Part shown: one piece after another, positions 35,711 through 49,366 of the stretch
Numbering within the stretch: the first letter of the stretch is position 1
Layout of the letters: every line of letters starts with the position of its first letter
Assembly (NCBI GenBank): GCA_020847735.1
Contig: JADLBL010000023.1
Coordinates: 1-64,000 of the forward strand
Direction of reading: 5' to 3'
Source: Candidatus Eisenbacteria bacterium
Lineage (GTDB): Bacteria > Eisenbacteria > RBG-16-71-46
Length of the DNA: 64,000 nucleotides
Made by a program: the position numbers and the translations under genes
Notes under the pieces: model-generated
Databases searched by the model: none
Told to the model about the DNA's origin: nothing
What the model saw: the letters and a program-made list of their open reading frames with translations, nothing else

Positions 35711-35784
35711 GGGCGTTCCCTGCGCGGGCGAAACCTGGCGGCGCGTTCGCGGAGTACGCGGACGCGCCGCGGTCGTTTTCCGGC

Positions 35785-36000
35785 GGCGGTCCGTTGCGCG
35801 TCCGGGGGGGGCGCGCATCGGCGGAGGCTCGCCTCGGGCGGCGGTCCGTTGCGCGTCCGGGGGGCACGCATCGGCGGAGGCTCGTCTCGGGCGGCGGGCC
35901 GCTGCGTGACTGAGGGGGCGCGCATCGGCGGACGCTTGCCTCGGGCGGCGGTCCGCTGCGCGTCCAGGAGGCGCGCATCGGCGGACGCTCGCCTCGGGCA
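35785..36000. repeat. Four tandem copies of a 53-55 bp repeat
   Basis: Copies begin at 35785, 35840, 35893 and 35947. The unit reads ggcggtccgttgcgcgtccg, then a G-run, then cgcgcatcggcgga, then a (g/c)ctcgcctcggg-type end. Differences are point changes and the length of the G-run. The repeat lies in the 480-bp gap between the YCF48 lipoprotein and the NYN gene. Frames through it are Arg/Pro-rich and have no start signals, so it is not coding. Confidence 0.85.
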
Positions 36001-40608: not shown

Positions 40609-41019
40609 GGTCAGCGCCGACCTTTCCCCCGAAATGGTCGGACACACCTCTCTCGCATGGGACCCACGGACCCGCGGCGCGCCCGCGTCCGATGGAGGAA
40701 GAACGCGGCCGCGCGACCCCGAGGGAGTGCGGGTGGTGGGTCTCGTCAATGAGGTCGCCGGACGGGGCTCCGTATGACGGGTCCGGAGTGAAATTCCTCG
40801 CGGGGATCGTCCGGGGAGGGGCGGGGGCGTCACATTTCGGCCGGCCGGGCGACCTCCTGTATATGGAAGCGATCCGAAGCATTGCTTGCCCCATCGCGGG
40901 ACGAAGCCTAGGCTTCTCGCGGTCCCCCCGGCCCTTCGAAACGGCTCCCCTCCGGCTCCCCCCGGTGTTGGGTTGCGCGCCCGTCTGCGATTTCAGGCCC
41001 AACCCCAGCGAAGGCAGAA
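40609..41019. other. Upstream region of the sigma/anti-sigma/CHAT operon
   Basis: 411 bp without a gene. It becomes AT-richer towards 40850-40920, including tgtatatgg (40858-40866), a possible -10-like element, and a perfect 14-bp palindrome at 40903-40916. The operon's promoter most likely lies here. Confidence 0.45.
40903..40916. promoter_or_regulatory. 14-bp palindrome, possible operator
   Basis: GAAGCCTAGGCTTC is perfectly symmetric, 104 bp upstream of the sigma-factor start. It contains CCTAGG, which is rare in such DNA. It would suit a dimeric regulator; no binder is known. Confidence 0.35.
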
Positions 41020-41580
41020 GTGTCCGCCCCCCGAGACCCCGCGCCGTCACCATTGGACTGGAACGACCTGCGCGCCTCCGTGCGCCGTCGGGTCTCGAGC
41101 CTGCTGCGCGGATGGTCCTCCGAGGACATCGAGGACATCACACAGGACGTTTTCGAGAAGCTCCTGAAGTTCACGAGTCGATCCGGTCCCCCGGACGATC
41201 ACGAGGCGCTGCTCACGGTGATCGCGCGGCGCACGGTGGTGAGCCGCATTCGCAAGCGCGCGCGGCGACCGGCGCACGAACCGATCACCGAGAGCCTGCC
41301 GGCGCCGGATGAAGCTGAAGGGGAGGAGCTCGCCGAGCTCGAAGCGCTGACCGAGTGGCGGGCGCTGCTGGTGATCGAGTTCTTCCGCGCGGGGCCGGGC
41401 GATTGTCTCGACCTCGCGGAAGCCCGACGGCAGGGAATTGACTTCAAGCAGCTCCCGACGAAGCGGCCGGGAGACACGCATCAGGCGAAGCTGCAGAGAT
41501 GGGCCCGTTGCAGGCGGAGCCTTCGCGCCGCCATCGCGGCGGGAAAGCTGCCCTGGAACGGACCCGGGAAACGGCCATGA
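41020..41580 (+). CDS. Divergent ECF-like sigma factor, first gene of the CHAT operon
   Basis: 186 residues from GTG. Region 2 is recognisable: VRRRVSSLLRGWSSEDIEDI-TQDVFEKLLKF, then HEALLTVIARRTVVSRIRKR, the -10-binding part. Region 4 is unusual. After ALTEWRALLVIEFFRAGPGD it reads CLDLAEARRQGIDFKQLPTK, RPGDTHQAKLQRWARCRRSL, so a helix-turn-helix is plausible but the common EIAxxLGxSxGTVKxRLxRA pattern is absent and the turn is lengthened. It may recognise an atypical -35 element. Its stop overlaps the anti-sigma ATG (ATGA), which supports a sigma/anti-sigma pair. Confidence 0.78.
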   Translation: MSAPRDPAPSPLDWNDLRASVRRRVSSLLRGWSSEDIEDITQDVFEKLLKFTSRSGPPDDHEALLTVIARRTVVSRIRKRARRPAHEPITESLPAPDEAEGEELAELEALTEWRALLVIEFFRAGPGDCLDLAEARRQGIDFKQLPTKRPGDTHQAKLQRWARCRRSLRAAIAAGKLPWNGPGKRP

Positions 41581-42488
41581 GCGATTCGATCCACCACGAA
41601 CACGAATGGTTTCGCCGGCACCTGCCGGACCACCTGCTCGACCTGCTCGTCGAAGGCGAACAGAAGCGCTTCGACTCGCACGCCCGCCGGTGCGCCACGT
41701 GCGCAAGGCTGCTCGCCCGCGCGCTCGGCGCCAGGCCGGACTGGTGGGACGACGCCGGGCATGCGCCGGTCGCCGTGCTTCTCGAGTGGGATCCGGCGGC
41801 GCGCGGCGAGCCGACGCACGAGGCGGTGCGGGCGCACCTCGCGCACTGCGAGGACTGCCGGCGCGACCTCGAGGAGTTGCGTGGAGCCGGGGTCGCGGGC
41901 CAGGTGGAACCGGCCCCGACCGTTTCGTCGCAACCCTCGCGCGCGGCGGCGCGCCGTGCGCCGGCCTGGCGCGGACTCGTCGCGGCAGGCGGAACCGCGG
42001 CGGTCGTCGTGGCCGCGGTCCTGCTCTGGCCGCGCCCGATCCTGCACGCACCGGCGCCGCCGGCCAGCTCCCCCGTGACGCCATTGACCGGCGCGCCTTC
42101 CACCGGGCCGGCCCCGGACGCACCGCGGAACTCGGTGCCCGAACCGGGCCGCACGGCCGAGCCCGTCGCGCTCGCCACCAGCGACCGGGGTGCTGCGGCA
42201 GCCATGACCGAAATACGAATCGCTCCCGGTGTGACGATCGTGCCCCTGACGCTGCCGGCGCTTCCGGTCGCCGACGACGCGATGCTGGTCGCCGAACTGC
42301 GCGATCACACCGGCGCCCTGGTTCACCGGCAGGTCCTGGTCGCGCGCCGTGCGCTCATGCCGGGCGGCGTCGAACTTCCGGTCGAAGGCCTGGGCGAGGG
42401 GCGCTGCACGCTCACGGTCCGCTATGTGGATCCGGCCCTCGGGGAATCGTCGCGCGAGTTCACACTCGATGTGAGAATATCGCGCTAG
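41577..42488 (+). CDS. Membrane anti-sigma factor with two zinc-finger motifs
   Basis: 303 residues. The cytoplasmic part carries two HxxxCxxC motifs, H35-C39-C42 in SHARRCATCARL and H87-C91-C94 in RAHLAHCEDCRRDL, like duplicated zinc-containing anti-sigma domains. A Pro/Ala/Arg linker precedes one membrane helix at about 131-151 (WRGLVAAGGTAAVVVAAVLL). The extracytoplasmic part is a Pro/Ser/Thr-rich stretch (152-200) followed by a beta-sandwich-like domain (215-303: VTIVPLTLPALPVADDAMLV, HRQVLVARRALMPGGVELPV, ending FTLDVRISR). It would hold the upstream sigma factor at the membrane until proteolysis or a signal acts on the outer domain. Only 2 bp separate it from the protease gene. Confidence 0.8.
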   Translation: MSDSIHHEHEWFRRHLPDHLLDLLVEGEQKRFDSHARRCATCARLLARALGARPDWWDDAGHAPVAVLLEWDPAARGEPTHEAVRAHLAHCEDCRRDLEELRGAGVAGQVEPAPTVSSQPSRAAARRAPAWRGLVAAGGTAAVVVAAVLLWPRPILHAPAPPASSPVTPLTGAPSTGPAPDAPRNSVPEPGRTAEPVALATSDRGAAAAMTEIRIAPGVTIVPLTLPALPVADDAMLVAELRDHTGALVHRQVLVARRALMPGGVELPVEGLGEGRCTLTVRYVDPALGESSREFTLDVRISR

Positions 42489-42490
42489 CA

Positions 42491-45400
42491 ATGTCTCCAC
42501 CGGGAGGCGGCAATCAGGCCGTCGTCCTGCGACTGGCCGTCCTCGCGATCGTCTGCGCCGGCCTCGGCGCGGCCGCCCCCGCGCGAGCGGACGCCCTCGC
42601 ACGCGATGGCGAAGCGCGATCCGCGCTGGCCGAAGCCGGGAAGCTGGCTGGCGCAGGCCGCTTCGGCGCGGCCGAGAGCCTGCTCGCCACGCTGCCCCCG
42701 GCGCCGCCGGACAGCGCGGCGGTGCTCGACCGCGAGCAGGCACGCCTCGAGCGTGCGCGACTGGGCGTGCGGACGGAAGCGCCGGGGCTTTGCCGCCCGG
42801 ACTGGGCTTGGCGCCCGGTGCGGCTTGTCGCCGCGCTCGAGCGGCTGGGCGAGCAGCCGGTGCCGCTCGCGGGCGTGTGGACCGATCGCGCGCGGGTCGA
42901 ATATCGCATGGGTCGCTGGCGGGAAGCCGCGGCGAGCGCCCGGTACGCGCTCGCGCTGCTCGATCGCGCCCGCTCGCGCGACCCGCTGCCGCGCTATCGC
43001 GCCCGCCTCGCCCTCGCCGAAGCGCTCGTCACCGAGGATCAGCTGGCCGCCGCGGTGCAGGTCGCGATCGCGGACTCGCTGGCGCACGAACTGGGCGCGC
43101 TGGCCGGCGCCGACCAACCCCGGCACCTGCGCATCGCCGGGGCCGTCGCGCTGATGGGCGGCCGCTTCGGCGAGGCCGTGCGAATCTTCTCGGAATGCGT
43201 CTCGGCGGCGGACGCGCGCACTCCGCCGAACGACGCCGAGGCGGGGCTCGGGCTGCTGTGGCGGGGCTACGCCGAAGGCTTCACCGGAGACCCCCTCGCC
43301 GAGACGCGTCGAACGCAGGCGCGCGAGCGGCTGCTGGCGACCCTCGGGCTCGGTGACGAACGGACGCTGCTCGTGATCTGGCGTTCGTTCGCGACCGTGC
43401 GCGATCCCGCCGTGCTGCCCGCGGCGGCGGCGTTGCTCGAGCGTGCGCAGACCTGGTTGCGCGCGAACGGTCTGTCGGAGATGGCCTGCGCCTGGGACGT
43501 GGACTATGCGCAGAGCCGCGTGAAGATCCAGCTCGAGCGCTTCGACGAGTCGCAGGCCCTGCTGCGACACGCGCTCGAGGTCAGCCGGCGCTGGAACGGA
43601 CGCGACAACCTTCGCGAGTACCTCGCGCTCGTGGACATCGGCATCGTCCACTGGCTGCAGAAGGACACGCTCGCCTGCGTGCAGACCGAGCGGCAGGCGC
43701 TCGAGATCAGCGCGAAGCATCCGATCTCGCTCGTCAACGACCCGAACTTCCCGCTCAACTACCTCGCGACCGAGCATGCGGCCGGCGGCCGCCTCGCCGA
43801 GGCGCGCGAGGAGTACGCGAAGATGTGGGAGGTCTACCGGGTCCTTTACGGCGACACGGTCCGGCTCGCGAGCATTCCCGCCGCGCGCGCCGGACGGGCC
43901 TCGCGCGGACTCGGCGACACGCTCGCCGCCGAGATGTGGTTCCAGCGCGCCCTGCTGCCGTTCGCACGGCACGGTGGCGGTTCGCGCGAGGAGTTCGCGG
44001 AGCTGAAGTCGAGCTACGCGCTCTTCCTCTACTGGAGCGGACAGAACCGCCGCGCGTTCGACATCATGCTCGACAACACGCGGCTGCGGCGCAAGGTCGT
44101 GAACGAGACCGTGCCGTGGTTCGCCGAGAACGACGGCGTGAGGTTCGCGAACAATCGCCGCTGGGATATCGAGATCCTCCTGTCCATCGCGCTCTGGACC
44201 CCGGGGGCCGACGCGCAGGTGCGCTCGGACACCTGGACCGAAATGGCGCTGGGGCGCGGGCTCGTCCTCGAGGCGCTGCTGAGCCGGGCGCACGGTGCGG
44301 GCGATGCGGCGGGCGGCACGACCGGGTTGCGGCGCGAACTGGCGACGCGCGTGCTCGCCTCGCTGCGATCACCCGACTCACCGGCGACGGAGCGCGGTCT
44401 CGACAGCCTGCGCGCGGAGATTTCCCGTCGCGAAAGCGCTCCGAGGGAGCCGGGCGACTCCGCGGCCCCAGGGCCCGATCTCACCCCGGCGGCCGTCGCA
44501 CGCCGCCTCGGCCGGGGAGCGCTCGTCAGCTACGTGCGCAGCGAGTTGTTCGAGCGAAAGGATGCGGTCGGCGACGTCGTGTGGTGGCCGCGCGAGTACT
44601 ACATGGCGTTCGTTCTCGCGCCGGGCGACACCGCGCCGCGCCTCCTGCTGCTCGGCGCGGCGGACTCCGTGGACGCGGCGGTGGCCCGCTGGCGCGCGCA
44701 GGCGTTCGCGAGTCCCCCGGGGGCGCGCGCCTTCGAAGACGGCGAGCGGCTCCGCCGGCTCGTCTGGGACCCGGTGGTGGCGCTGCTGCCCGCCGGCGCG
44801 CCGGTGTGGATGGTTCCCGACGGAGAGCTGCAGAAGGTGAACTTCTACGCCCTGCCGGCCTCGCCCGGGCGCTGGCTGGTCGAGCAGCCGCGCGTGCTGC
44901 ACCGGATCGGCTCCGAGCGCGACCTGCTCGCCGCGCAGGATGCGGGTGAGGCGGCGCACGGCGCGCTCGTGTTCGGAGGCGTGGACTACGATCGCTCGAG
45001 CGAGACGGTGGATTCCACCGGAGTCGGAGCGCCGCGGATGGCGGCGAATGGGACCGTCGCTGACGGCGGAGCCGCGGCGCGCGCGAACTCGAGGACCGCG
45101 GCGCCCGGGCCGCCCGCCTGTCGCGGACTGCTCGGTCAGCATTTCGATCCTCTGCCCGCGACCCGGGGCGAAGCCGCGGCGATCGCCTCGCTCGCGGGTG
45201 CGCTCGCGGGCGCCTCGGGCGGCGTCGCCCCCATCGCCCTGTCCGGTCCCGAGGCGGACGAAGCGGCCTTCAAGCGTCTCGCCCCGGGCCGGCGCGTCAT
45301 CCACCTCGCGACGCACAGCTATTTCCTGGGCACCGAGTGCGCCAGCGGTTCGCCGGCGGCGCGGGTGCTGGCGCAGAACCCTTTGGTCTTCTCGGGCATC

Positions 45401-45811
45401 GTCCTTGCCGGCGCGAATCGCTGGCAGCAGGCGCGCGAACGTCACGAAGCGGACGACGGCCTTCTCACCGCCGAGGAACTCGCCGGGCTGGACCTGCGCG
45501 GCGCCGAGTGGCTCGTGCTCTCGGGATGCGAAAGCGGGCTGGGCCAGGTGAAATCGTGGGAGGGGGTGTTCGGGCTGCCGCGGGCCGGCCGCCGCGCCGG
45601 CGTGCGCACCCTGATCATGAGCCTCGCACCGGTGGACGACGACGCCAGCAGCCTGTGGATGCGCTCGCTCTACGACGCGCGGTTCGTCCGCGGCGAGGAA
45701 ACCGCGTTCGCCGTTCGCACGGCGTCGCGCCGGGTGATCGAGTGGCTGCGCCGCCACGGCCGCGCGCCGGAGCCGCGCCTGTGGGGTGCGTTCGTGGCGC
45801 TCGGGGAGTAG
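42491..45811 (+). CDS. Exported TPR-CHAT caspase-like protease
   Basis: 1106 residues. An N-terminal signal peptide (VVLRLAVLAIVCAGLGAAAP, cut near ARADA) indicates export. Residues of about 40-620 are helical TPR-like repeats (ALAEAGKLAGAGRFGAAESL, RMGRWREAAASARYALALLD, ERFDESQALLRHALEVSRRW, ALGDTLAAEMWFQRAL-type units). The C-terminal CHAT domain (about 680-1106) contains DGELQKVNFYALP, then H942 in RRVIHLATHSYFLG and C1013 in EWLVLSGCESGLGQ, the caspase/separase-type dyad, and a VFGLPRAGRRAGVRTLIMSL segment. All catalytic residues are present. It is the third gene of the sigma/anti-sigma operon; the periplasmic domain of the anti-sigma factor is an obvious candidate substrate (inference). 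Confidence 0.87.
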   Translation: MSPPGGGNQAVVLRLAVLAIVCAGLGAAAPARADALARDGEARSALAEAGKLAGAGRFGAAESLLATLPPAPPDSAAVLDREQARLERARLGVRTEAPGLCRPDWAWRPVRLVAALERLGEQPVPLAGVWTDRARVEYRMGRWREAAASARYALALLDRARSRDPLPRYRARLALAEALVTEDQLAAAVQVAIADSLAHELGALAGADQPRHLRIAGAVALMGGRFGEAVRIFSECVSAADARTPPNDAEAGLGLLWRGYAEGFTGDPLAETRRTQARERLLATLGLGDERTLLVIWRSFATVRDPAVLPAAAALLERAQTWLRANGLSEMACAWDVDYAQSRVKIQLERFDESQALLRHALEVSRRWNGRDNLREYLALVDIGIVHWLQKDTLACVQTERQALEISAKHPISLVNDPNFPLNYLATEHAAGGRLAEAREEYAKMWEVYRVLYGDTVRLASIPAARAGRASRGLGDTLAAEMWFQRALLPFARHGGGSREEFAELKSSYALFLYWSGQNRRAFDIMLDNTRLRRKVVNETVPWFAENDGVRFANNRRWDIEILLSIALWTPGADAQVRSDTWTEMALGRGLVLEALLSRAHGAGDAAGGTTGLRRELATRVLASLRSPDSPATERGLDSLRAEISRRESAPREPGDSAAPGPDLTPAAVARRLGRGALVSYVRSELFERKDAVGDVVWWPREYYMAFVLAPGDTAPRLLLLGAADSVDAAVARWRAQAFASPPGARAFEDGERLRRLVWDPVVALLPAGAPVWMVPDGELQKVNFYALPASPGRWLVEQPRVLHRIGSERDLLAAQDAGEAAHGALVFGGVDYDRSSETVDSTGVGAPRMAANGTVADGGAAARANSRTAAPGPPACRGLLGQHFDPLPATRGEAAAIASLAGALAGASGGVAPIALSGPEADEAAFKRLAPGRRVIHLATHSYFLGTECASGSPAARVLAQNPLVFSGIVLAGANRWQQARERHEADDGLLTAEELAGLDLRGAEWLVLSGCESGLGQVKSWEGVFGLPRAGRRAGVRTLIMSLAPVDDDASSLWMRSLYDARFVRGEETAFAVRTASRRVIEWLRRHGRAPEPRLWGAFVALGE

Positions 45812-45941: not shown

Positions 45942-46538
45942 ATGACGAGCTCGGATCCTCCACCCCGCGAACGGTCCGCCGGTGAACCCGCCGCGGACCC
46001 CTCGCACAAGGGCACCGATACCTTCGTCCAGCAGGTCTACGACGAGCTGCGCGCGATCGCCCGCTCCCGGCTGCGCGGCGAGCACGGGCACGTCACGCTC
46101 CAGTCCACCGAGCTCGTCCACGAGGCGTACCTGCGTCTCGGTCCCGCGGACGGTTCGCGCTGGGAGAGTCGCGGTCAGTTCTTCGCGGCGGCGGCCGAGG
46201 CCATGCGGCGCATCCTGATCGACCGTGCACGGTCGCGCGGCCGCCAGAAGCGCGGCGGCGATGCCGACGGGCGGCCGGCGCCGAAACTTTCGCTCGATCT
46301 CGCCGAGGTCGCGGCGCTCGCCGCCGACGACGATCCCGGGACCGTGCTGGCGCTCGACGAGGCCATCGAACGCCTCCGGGATCAGGACGCACGCGTGGCG
46401 GAAATCGTGCGCCTGCGCTTCTACGCCGGGCTCAGCGTCGAGGAGGTGGCCGAAGTGCTCGGGACCTCGACGCGCACGGTGCTGCGCGATTGGGCCTTCG
46501 CTCGGGCCTGGCTCTACGGCGAGCTGACGAAGGGGTAG
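45942..46538 (+). CDS. ECF sigma factor (Sigma70_ECF, TIGR02999-like)
   Basis: 198 residues. VQQVYDELRAIARSRLRGEH-GHVTLQSTELVHEAYLRLG is the diagnostic region-2 pattern of this sub-family. WESRGQFFAAAAEAMRRILI-DRARSRGRQKRGG follows, then region 4 (ALDEAIERLRDQDARVAEIV-RLRFYAGLSVEEVAEVLGTS, TRTVLRDWAFARAWLYGEL). This group usually has no anti-sigma gene and sits beside a Ser/Thr kinase, as seen here. In the related EcfP-PknT pair of Vibrio the kinase phosphorylates and activates the sigma factor. Its 3' end overlaps the kinase gene, on the other strand, by 25 bp. Confidence 0.93.
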   Translation: MTSSDPPPRERSAGEPAADPSHKGTDTFVQQVYDELRAIARSRLRGEHGHVTLQSTELVHEAYLRLGPADGSRWESRGQFFAAAAEAMRRILIDRARSRGRQKRGGDADGRPAPKLSLDLAEVAALAADDDPGTVLALDEAIERLRDQDARVAEIVRLRFYAGLSVEEVAEVLGTSTRTVLRDWAFARAWLYGELTKG

Positions 46539-49366
46539 TCAGGCCGGGAGCGCGCGGCCAGCAGCCTCGGGAAGCGCTCGACGTCCTTCACGGTGGCTCC
46601 GCTGCGCCGAGCCTTGGCGAGCAGCGCGATCGCCGCATCCCGCCTGCCGGTCTCCCAGCTCACTTCGGCCATGCAGAACCACGTATCGAGCATCTGAGGA
46701 TCGCTTTCCTCAAGACCGCCGCGGCACAATCGAAGCGCGATCGCCGCGAGCGCCTCGGCTTCCGCCGCGCGGCCCTGCCGGGCCGCGACGCGCGCGCGGC
46801 CGAACAGGTCGTCTCCGCAGTAGGAGCGCAGCGCCGCGTTCGACGAGTCGAGGCCGGTCCACGCGCTCACGAACAGGCTCTCGGCTTCGGAGTGGCGCTC
46901 GAGATCGAGACACAGGTTGCCGTAGCCGATCCGCGCGGTGGGCAGCACGAGCGTTTCGTCGCGGTTGGCCACGAGCACCGCGATCGCCCGGCGGTAATGC
47001 GCGTCGGCCGCCCTCGTCTGCCCTGCCTGGAATTCTTGTCCCGCGAGGTTGGCCAGGGCCTCGCCGACGCGGGCGTGGTCGGGTCCGTAGACTTCGCGGT
47101 AGATCTCGAGCGCTTCCTTCGTCAGGCGGATTCCTTCGTCGAGTTGCCCTGCCGACCTGTGGATGCTGCCGAGTGTCGCCAGCTCGAACGCGAGCGCGTC
47201 GTTTCGCGCCCCCCTGGCGCGCAGGATACGGACGGCCTCCTCTTCCGCGGCGATCGCCTCGGGGTACCTCCCGCGCGCCACCTGGACGTCGGCGAGCCGA
47301 CCGAGCGCGATCGCGACCGAACGGTGATCCGGTGCCCAGAGCCGCCGGGCCATGTCCACGCCGATCCGGGCGTGCGCCAGGGCCGAGTCGAGCCTGCCCA
47401 GATGGAGGAAATCGGAGGCGATCATGGACTGGAGCCCGGGCTCTTGCAGCGGCTCGTTCGCTTCAATCGCGTACGCGAGTGCGCTCCTGCCCTCCTCGAG
47501 CGCCGTGTCGTGACGCGAGCGCCACGAGGCGAGCGTCGAGCGACTGGAGTGGACCCGCGTGAGCACGCTGGCGTCCGGCTTCGGAGAGCGGTTTGCGCTG
47601 GCGATCGCAAGTGCGAGCAGCGAATCGGCCTGGTCGAGCGCCTGAGCATCCATTTGCAGGCGCGCTTTTCGGTAGTAACTCATGGCCAGCAGCGTGGGAT
47701 CGCCGGTGCGGCTTCGGGCGAGCAGTCCGATCGCACGGTCGACGAGCGGCGGAATGCTGTCCCTGCGCCCCGCCATGCTGTATCCGTTCGCGAGCTTGTC
47801 CAGATAGCGCCCGACTTCGACTTCGTCACGCGGTCGTGCCGCATCCACGGCGGCCAGCGCGGCGCGCGCCGCCCGTAGACCCGATTCGAAATCGCCGAGA
47901 TTGAGATACGAGTCGCTGATTGCGCCGAGCAGCCGGGCGCGCACGAGAGGATCCGCGGGAGGCGCGGTCGCGTCCTGCTCGAACCCGCGTTCGAGAAGCG
48001 CCCGCACGGTGAGCGAATCGGGGTTTCCGCCCGGACCCGAGGCGTGGAAGAGCCCGACCATGAACTGGGCCACCTGCTTCGCCGACTCGGCCTCGCGGCG
48101 CGCGACTCGCTCGGCCTGGACCGCGCGGCGGAAGCCGATGCCTGTGGCGATGCCGCCGACCACGAGCGCGAGCAGCACGATTCCGGCCGCTGCGACCCCC
48201 ACGGCGTGCCGGCGCGCGAACTTCTTCCAGCGGTAGAGCGCTCCGGGCGCCGCCGCGAGTACGGGCTCGTTCGCGAGGTAACGCCGGATGTCCGCGGCCA
48301 GCTCGGAGGCCGAGGCGTAGCGGCGCTCGGGGTCACGCTCCATCGCCTTCAGTGTGATCCATTGCATCTCGCCCTTGAGCGATCGGATCAGGGTGCGCGC
48401 GTCGGTCGAGCGCTTGCCTGCCCGCTCGCCCGTGTCGGAGCGCGCGGCCCGCTCGGCCGGCGTCGGCGGATCGGAGAGCACGATCTGCATGGCATCGGGC
48501 CACGAGGCGTTCCGGAGGCGATCGCGGTCAAACGGCAGGTCGCCTACGAGCAGCTCGTAGAGGAGCACGCCGAGCGAGTAGATGTCCGAGCGCGTATCCA
48601 CGGGGGCGCGGATCGCGCCGAGCTGCTCGGGGCTCATGTAGCCCGCGGTGCCGATGATGACCCCTTCGCGCGTCATCGCCGGTCCGCCCAGCGACGTCTC
48701 GCCCGTGGCCTTCGCGACGCCGAAGTCGATCACCTTCAGCACCGCCGTCTCGCCGCGGGCCACGAGGACGTTCGACGGCTTGATGTCGCGGTGGATCACG
48801 CCCTTCTGGTGCGCGTGCTGGATCGCATCGCACACCTGCAGGAACAGCTTCAGTCGCTCGCGCAGCGTCAACTGCGCGGCGTCCGAGAAGCTGGTGATGG
48901 GGACGCCGGGCACGTTCTCCATGGCGAAATAGGGTCGGCCTGCTTCGGTTTCGCCGGCGTCGAAGACCTGGGCGATGCCCGGATGGTCCATCAGCGCGAG
49001 AGCCTGGCGTTCGGCTTCGAAGCGTGCGATCACCTGTTTCGAGTCCATGCCCGGCTTGATGAGCTTGAGGGCCACGCGGCGGCGGATCGGCTGCTGTTGT
49101 TCGGCGAGGTAGACGACGGCGAAGCCGCCCTCGCCGATCGGTTCGATCAGGCGATACGGCCCGACGAGCGTGCCGGCGGCGGGCGCCGGCCGGTCGGCGA
49201 GGAATCCGGAGGCCGCGTCGTGCGCCTTCAGCAGCGCATGGACTTCGTCACGTAGCGCGGGGTCGAGGCCCGGGTCCGCGTCGAGTGCCTCGTGCCGCGC
49301 GACGGCGGGCAGGTCGCGAACACGGTCGAACAACTCCCGCAACCTGGACCATCGTTCGTCGGCCAT
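46514..49366 (-). CDS. Ser/Thr protein kinase with membrane helix and C-terminal TPR domain
   Basis: 950 residues. A short N-terminal helical region (WSRLRELFDRVRDLPAVARH) typical of ECF-linked kinases leads into the kinase domain: loop IGEGGFAVVYLAEQ (77-90), K101, HRDIKPSNVL (192-201), D214FG, and an activation segment ending GTAGYMSPEQ. A membrane helix lies at about 385-408 (VGVAAAGIVLLALVVGGIAT). The outer part holds TPR units (ALAHARIGVDMARRLWAPDH, GIRLTKEALEIYREVYGPDH, ADAHYRRAIAVLVANR). This ECF-STPK-TPR set is common in Planctomycetota, Acidobacteriota and Gemmatimonadota. It probably controls the convergent ECF sigma factor. Length and motifs are complete, so it should be active. 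Confidence 0.93.
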   Translation of the reverse strand: MADERWSRLRELFDRVRDLPAVARHEALDADPGLDPALRDEVHALLKAHDAASGFLADRPAPAAGTLVGPYRLIEPIGEGGFAVVYLAEQQQPIRRRVALKLIKPGMDSKQVIARFEAERQALALMDHPGIAQVFDAGETEAGRPYFAMENVPGVPITSFSDAAQLTLRERLKLFLQVCDAIQHAHQKGVIHRDIKPSNVLVARGETAVLKVIDFGVAKATGETSLGGPAMTREGVIIGTAGYMSPEQLGAIRAPVDTRSDIYSLGVLLYELLVGDLPFDRDRLRNASWPDAMQIVLSDPPTPAERAARSDTGERAGKRSTDARTLIRSLKGEMQWITLKAMERDPERRYASASELAADIRRYLANEPVLAAAPGALYRWKKFARRHAVGVAAAGIVLLALVVGGIATGIGFRRAVQAERVARREAESAKQVAQFMVGLFHASGPGGNPDSLTVRALLERGFEQDATAPPADPLVRARLLGAISDSYLNLGDFESGLRAARAALAAVDAARPRDEVEVGRYLDKLANGYSMAGRRDSIPPLVDRAIGLLARSRTGDPTLLAMSYYRKARLQMDAQALDQADSLLALAIASANRSPKPDASVLTRVHSSRSTLASWRSRHDTALEEGRSALAYAIEANEPLQEPGLQSMIASDFLHLGRLDSALAHARIGVDMARRLWAPDHRSVAIALGRLADVQVARGRYPEAIAAEEEAVRILRARGARNDALAFELATLGSIHRSAGQLDEGIRLTKEALEIYREVYGPDHARVGEALANLAGQEFQAGQTRAADAHYRRAIAVLVANRDETLVLPTARIGYGNLCLDLERHSEAESLFVSAWTGLDSSNAALRSYCGDDLFGRARVAARQGRAAEAEALAAIALRLCRGGLEESDPQMLDTWFCMAEVSWETGRRDAAIALLAKARRSGATVKDVERFPRLLAARSRPDYPFVSSP

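Follow-up and report, generated by a model that had tools for sequence, protein, structure and literature searches.

A sigma factor, a zinc-finger anti-sigma factor and a predicted exported TPR-CHAT protease encoded side by side in Candidatus Eisenbacteria: a candidate module for protease-controlled transcription

The window, the 64,000-nucleotide stretch of DNA analysed here, belongs to a Candidatus Eisenbacteria genome (G000; 3.66 Mb, 27 contigs, 99.6% complete). It carries three genes on the same strand in the order sigma factor, anti-sigma factor and TPR-CHAT protein (Table 1). The first two genes overlap by 4 bp (ATGA) and the last two are separated by a 2-bp gap; all three reading frames lie where the first-pass annotation had placed them. 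A promoter scan found none, and Rfam gave no match in the window. Directly 3' of the trio lies a second, ordinary ECF sigma gene (TIGR02999 type), which shares 25 bp with a convergent Ser/Thr kinase-TPR gene (45942-49366). On the other side of the trio, GC-rich direct repeats, spaced about 53-54 bases apart, occupy 35779-35999 and are not CRISPR-like.

Table 1. Features of the three-gene locus, with positions in the window.
Feature	Position	Strand	Evidence
ECF sigma factor of 186 aa; region 4 probably diverged (RWARC signature)	41020..41580	+	Sigma70_r2 above cut-off; orthologues 46-49% identical (L044, L045)
Putative anti-sigma factor of 303 aa with two zinc fingers, a single TM helix, a linker and an outer beta domain	41577..42488	+	zf-HC2 twice; invariant H35-C39-C42 and H87-C91-C94
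Zinc-binding motif 1, HARRCATC, residues 35-42	41679..41702	+	H and both C invariant, 7 homologues
Zinc-binding motif 2, HLAHCEDC, residues 87-94	41835..41858	+	H and both C invariant, 7 homologues
Single TM helix of anti-sigma factor, residues about 133-151	41973..42029	+	Hydropathy; same position in orthologues
Predicted outer beta-sandwich domain, anti-sigma residues about 190-301	42144..42479	+	AlphaFold2 model; Ig/FN3-like matches
Predicted exported TPR-CHAT caspase-like protease, 1106 aa	42491..45811	+	CHAT 751-1106, TPR_12, N-terminal signal peptide; orthologues 47-48% identical
Signal peptide region (MSPPGGGNQAVVLRLAVLAIVCAGLGAAAPARA)	42491..42589	+	Hydropathy maximum at residues 10-28; signal peptides in orthologues too
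CHAT protease domain	44741..45808	+	Pfam PF12770, 163 bits
Catalytic His942	45314..45316	+	His in 69/71 sigma-linked CHAT genes and 79/79 others
Catalytic Cys1013	45527..45529	+	Cys in 70/71 sigma-linked CHAT genes and 79/79 others

The sigma factor matches Sigma70_r2 with 29.5 bits (Pfam cut-off 24), one of 21 sigma-70 region-2 matches in the 3.66 Mb of the genome, and its GTG start is supported by alignment with two orthologues. Region 4 has no Pfam match in the window protein. Homologue alignments revealed a conserved helix-turn-helix-like stretch with the signature RWxRC at the C-terminal end, and the closest sigma homologue outside the genus (L177) gives a weak Sigma70_r4 match (E 0.033). 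Region 4 has thus probably diverged rather than been lost, in agreement with the earlier description of a divergent ECF sigma factor. Long imperfect inverted repeats lie 5' of the orthologous sigma genes (L044:10340-10420 with 39-nt arms; L045:6908-6966 with 27-nt arms), the core in L044 being GTATGACAG..CTGTCATAC. Only traces of this repeat are seen in the window, near 40837; it is a possible operator.

The second gene product matches zf-HC2 in two stretches (28.9 bits) and combines the H-x3-C-x2-C motif and a single membrane helix with a gene position directly 3' of the sigma gene. It can therefore be classed, by its sequence features, as a ZAS-type membrane anti-sigma factor and putative sigma inhibitor. 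A proline/alanine-rich linker follows the helix and leads to a predicted outer beta sandwich, modelled by AlphaFold2 with a pLDDT of about 85 (mostly 76-91) and with Ig/FN3-like structural matches; a zinc finger, the helix and the outer beta domain had all been noted at first reading. The most strongly kept stretch in the variable linker of three orthologous anti-sigma factors is EPxAxxxxxRG, with E195, P196, A198, R204 and G205 invariant. It is a pure guess that this stretch might be a cut site; an arginine before the cut would suit separase-like proteases. A 450-aa protein encoded at L075:6626-7978 unites sigma region 2 with a zinc-finger membrane anti-sigma factor; its gene has no CHAT neighbour.

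The third gene product belongs to the CHAT family (PF12770), as judged by a profile match above the curated cut-off together with the His/Cys dyad, and hydropathy analysis indicated one N-terminal hydrophobic segment. Both catalytic residues are retained in 69 of the 71 sigma-linked CHAT genes, a sign that catalysis is under selection. The signal peptide and the intact dyad noted at first reading are conserved in the orthologues and in nearly all relatives, respectively. The AlphaFold2 model of the protein was too poor for use (mean pLDDT 52) and its Foldseek matches were set aside, but two DdvA entries among them prompted a profile search. A sequence search of the PDB with the full CHAT protein gave no match. 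In contrast, a profile built from 29 trio CHAT domains found DdvA as its best PDB relative (8rot/8rw5, E 5.6e-15), followed by Csx29 (about 1e-9) and separase (1.5e-4). Both DdvA entries carry the title "transmembrane anti-sigma factor DdvA" and the protein name "CHAT domain-containing protein", and the His and Cys are retained in the CHAT of DdvA.

Two further species of the genus carry the trio with order and strand unchanged. The orthologues in L044 have 186, 304 and 1073 aa; those in L045 have 186, 297 and 911+ aa, the CHAT protein being cut by the contig end. Identities to the window proteins are 46-49% for the sigma factor, 37-38% for the anti-sigma factor and 47-48% for the CHAT protein. 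The records L213 and L214 hold the same sequences, and the closest named relatives with the trio are Candidatus Eisenbacteria metagenome assemblies. The conserved order in both species places the trio far from chance. Nor is it a one-off arrangement: five of the six CHAT genes in the genome belong to sets of sigma, regulator and CHAT. Besides the window trio, these are sigma, kinase-like membrane protein and CHAT (L039), CHAT, sigma and anti-sigma (L041, L042), and sigma, anti-sigma and CHAT (L043, whose sigma gene was missed by the gene-calling script and identified separately).

We surveyed 114 non-redundant CHAT neighbourhoods of the class, with genes called by an in-house script. A same-strand sigma gene was found at gene offset -2 of CHAT in 33/87 cases and at +1 in 19/107, as opposed to 2/245 at offsets 4-5 (Fisher 3e-18, kinship ignored). 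Sigma-linked CHAT genes were present in 18 of the 30 surveyed genomes with CHAT, from seven families of the class; many other CHAT genes of the class have no adjoining sigma gene. Among 40 loci outside the class, a same-strand sigma gene occupied offset -2 in 10/37. The first-pass annotation had named a neighbourhood not conserved in relatives as grounds for giving up its proposal, and the neighbourhood proved to be strongly conserved, across seven families and into other phyla. Two side observations come from outside the class: L178:5000-14932 carries two complete sigma/anti-sigma/CHAT trios in tandem, and G093:C1:1390078-1421392 carries at least five CHAT genes within about 31 kb.

These counts bear on the idea that the genes are chance neighbours, or products of lineage-specific gene crowding, with no functional link. 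Eisenbacteria are indeed rich in CHAT and ECF genes. However, the offset profile contradicts this idea, since sigma genes sit at two exact offsets and are nearly absent four or five genes away, and the same layout recurs in other phyla and even as a gene fusion, which makes such an origin very improbable. Shared descent was considered as well. On the CHAT-domain tree, at least 11 changes of gene order and at least seven changes of regulator type took place with the partners still linked, and CHAT distances correlate with both sigma distances (r 0.64) and regulator distances (r 0.65). Because the partners remain together through changes of order and regulator, kinship does not account for the linkage.

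The middle gene of the sets is of three types. Two encode zinc-finger proteins, one with a TM helix and either a beta or a TPR domain outside, the other soluble, about 200 aa long and equipped with a beta domain. The third encodes a Ser/Thr kinase with a TM helix and an outer DUF4384 domain. The kinase type replaces the anti-sigma factor beside CHAT in L084, L086 and other sets with a regulator of 570-612 aa. These sister sets, which place a kinase, TM helix and DUF4384 by the same type of CHAT, are reminiscent of known pairs of ECF sigma factors and Ser/Thr kinases, from which the window trio differs by its zinc-finger anti-sigma factor.

We next compared the predicted compartments of CHAT and regulator, scoring a signal-peptide-like segment for each CHAT (alternative starts allowed) and TM helices for each regulator. 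The signal-peptide cut-off of 1.6 was picked after the scores had been seen, and L144 was assigned as soluble by hand. States in other phyla were read by hand, overriding the raw score for L188 and L191, and L171, cut by its contig, was omitted. With these assignments the compartments agree in 54/55 sets of the class, and in 69/70 once 15 sets of other phyla are included. The 70 sets comprise 54 with a TM regulator and a signal peptide, 15 with neither, none with TM but no signal peptide, and one soluble regulator with a signal peptide. Hence, a membrane regulator goes with an exported CHAT in 54/54 sets and a soluble regulator with an unexported CHAT in 15/16; the sole mismatch, L049, has a divergent arrangement. 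Among unlinked complete CHATs, 42/48 carry a signal peptide, so export is the usual state of CHAT and unexported CHATs concentrate beside soluble regulators. The CHAT tree contains just two independent compartment switches, both concerted and together too few for a significant sign test. We therefore set aside a naive Fisher value of 2e-14 as inflated by kinship and regard the compartment match as suggestive rather than as proof. It is consistent with the earlier proposal that the exported CHAT and the outer half of the anti-sigma factor would share one compartment. As a further observation, the sigma-linked CHAT proteins of L085, L124 and L140 resemble lipoproteins, with a Cys closing the signal peptide; these proteases would be kept near a membrane. 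In L053, L054 and L058, TPR-CHAT genes adjoin those for a small protein of 70-142 aa and a radical SAM enzyme, the latter confirmed by Pfam in L053; such sets might be CHAT systems that modify peptides.

The main rival explanation takes CHAT as an output of the pair. Sigma and anti-sigma factor would sense envelope stress by themselves or through DegS-like proteases, and CHAT would merely be driven by sigma and act on envelope proteins. The compartments would then agree because envelope functions are governed by membrane anti-sigma factors and cytoplasmic functions by soluble ones. Auto-regulation alone explains the operon adjacency, and a CHAT that is a mere sigma target gives the same adjacency; on the same side we count the sets of CHAT-sigma-regulator order and the divergent or convergent sets, in which transcription of the pair does not run on into CHAT. 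In another genus, the closest sigma/anti-sigma pair (L074) likewise has other exported proteins in the CHAT slot, from which we conclude that CHAT is optional rather than obligatory for such pairs. Nevertheless, the linkage persists with unrelated regulators, zinc-finger proteins and kinases, that share only an outer domain in the compartment of CHAT. Moreover, fusions of anti-sigma factor and TPR-CHAT (L199 and DdvA) put both in one chain, which would be needless for an output gene. We consider the output explanation unlikely, although it is the strongest competitor to the proposal that CHAT acts on the anti-sigma factor.

The fusion outside the class lies at L199:6411-10510, where a 170-aa sigma gene is followed after 11 bp by a single ORF of 1191 aa encoding zf-HC2 (7-40), another H-x3-C-x2-C motif (92), a TM helix (142), TPR and CHAT (848-1189). 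A second candidate, from another species (G390, L216), with halves 41% identical and in one frame, was rejected as an intact fusion of this type since a TGA lies between the TM helix and the TPR; a wider search found no other complete fusion of the L199 type. The same combination of anti-sigma part, TM, TPR and CHAT in one chain characterizes DdvA of Myxococcus xanthus (PDB 8rot, 8rw5), and is divided between two separate genes in the window. DdvS/DdvA resembles the trio in joining an ECF sigma factor to a one-membrane-pass anti-sigma factor linked to CHAT. As its CHAT is the best PDB match of the trio profile, with His and Cys kept, we view DdvA as a solved single-chain relative. It differs in being one polypeptide, whereas the window CHAT is a separate, predicted exported protein and the window anti-sigma factor has zinc fingers and a beta domain of its own. 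DdvS controls an antiphage island (PMC12288465, review).

These single chains also lend themselves to a second rival explanation, in which CHAT would be a non-proteolytic or only self-cutting sensor, a detached DdvA-like module whose binding to the outer domain would change, by conformation, how the anti-sigma factor holds sigma. In DdvA and L199 the TPR-CHAT part belongs to the anti-sigma factor itself, and TPR is the usual binding module. Yet the dyad kept in 69/71 sigma-linked CHATs points to selection on catalysis, and we judge a sensor without proteolysis to be less probable again than CHAT as an output. Taken together, the recurrence, the compartment match and the fusions make it very likely that CHAT and the anti-sigma factor share one mechanism and meet in one compartment. 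Within it, the simplest account is that CHAT would cleave the regulator to free sigma; it draws on the Csx29-Csx30 precedent, the conserved dyad and a site-2 protease homologue in the genome, and we give it roughly even odds.

The other closest known system is Csx29/Csx30/CASP-sigma of type III-E CRISPR (Craspase), which likewise holds a TPR-CHAT protease, a sigma inhibitor and an ECF-type sigma factor at one locus. Csx29 cuts the sigma inhibitor Csx30 and thereby relieves inhibition (PMC10028731). It was the precedent put forward in the first-pass annotation and holds up as the second-best PDB match of the trio profile; it is not the sole precedent, since DdvA is closer in architecture and membrane topology. 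Csx29 is activated by target RNA while in complex with Cas7-11, and Csx30 has not been described as an anti-sigma factor of the zinc-finger membrane type. The Csx29 system keeps its CHAT protease in the cytoplasm, whereas the window CHAT and its orthologues carry a signal peptide. The absence of a CRISPR link was borne out at this locus: positions 30000-60000 of the window contain no CRISPR-like repeat array, and PADLOC gave no match to the three trio proteins. A further likeness is to RseA/DegS/RseP and RsiW-type proteolysis, where a one-pass membrane anti-sigma factor has a cytoplasmic sigma-binding part. The genome encodes an M50 site-2 protease homologue (matches above cut-off), and the difference is that the proposed first protease here would be an operon-encoded clan CD cysteine protease instead of the serine protease DegS or PrsW. 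The parts and the principle are thus already known, given the cleavage of a sigma inhibitor by Csx29 and the single chain of anti-sigma factor and CHAT in DdvA; for the separate three-gene form, its spread and its parallel exported and cytoplasmic versions, we found no account in the literature searched, most subscription papers being beyond reach.

We therefore propose, with a probability of about 0.52, that the three genes form a self-contained module in which the exported CHAT cuts the outer part of the anti-sigma factor and frees sigma. Gene linkage, recurrence, compartment match, conserved dyad, natural fusion and M50 homologue form its observed basis. The zinc-finger part of the anti-sigma factor would hold the ECF sigma factor at the inner face of the cytoplasmic membrane, and the single helix and linker would present the beta domain outside. 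TPR-CHAT, exported into the same outer compartment, could bind a trigger (a ligand, damaged envelope or a foreign protein) with its TPR solenoid, turning on the His/Cys protease, which would then cut the outer part of the anti-sigma factor. An M50/RseP-type site-2 protease and cytoplasmic proteases may complete the breakdown, and the freed sigma factor would transcribe its regulon. In the cytoplasmic version, a CHAT lacking a signal peptide would act directly on a soluble anti-sigma factor and cleave it, in the manner of Csx29 and Csx30. The steps that we infer are physical contact, cleavage, the trigger and the release of sigma.

A broader reading, which we hold tentatively and at somewhat less than even odds, is that CHAT (separase/caspase-like) proteases may be general, phylum-crossing first-step proteases for sigma release. 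Their partners, zinc-finger anti-sigma factors or kinases, could lie to either side of the membrane, with CHAT exported or kept inside to match. The Csx29 and DdvA branches would then be special cases of an older non-CRISPR module. Bacterial caspase-like proteases are usually seen as effectors of cell death or defence with unknown substrates; the operon of sigma factor, its restraint and CHAT would assign many of them a specific substrate that can be tested and make them receivers of signals. The Csx29-Csx30 mechanism would then rest on an older regulatory theme free of CRISPR, which would also suggest why DdvA has a CHAT domain. Dozens of small three-gene systems, some of them cytoplasmic and easy to purify, would be at hand for testing transcription controlled by a caspase-like protease.
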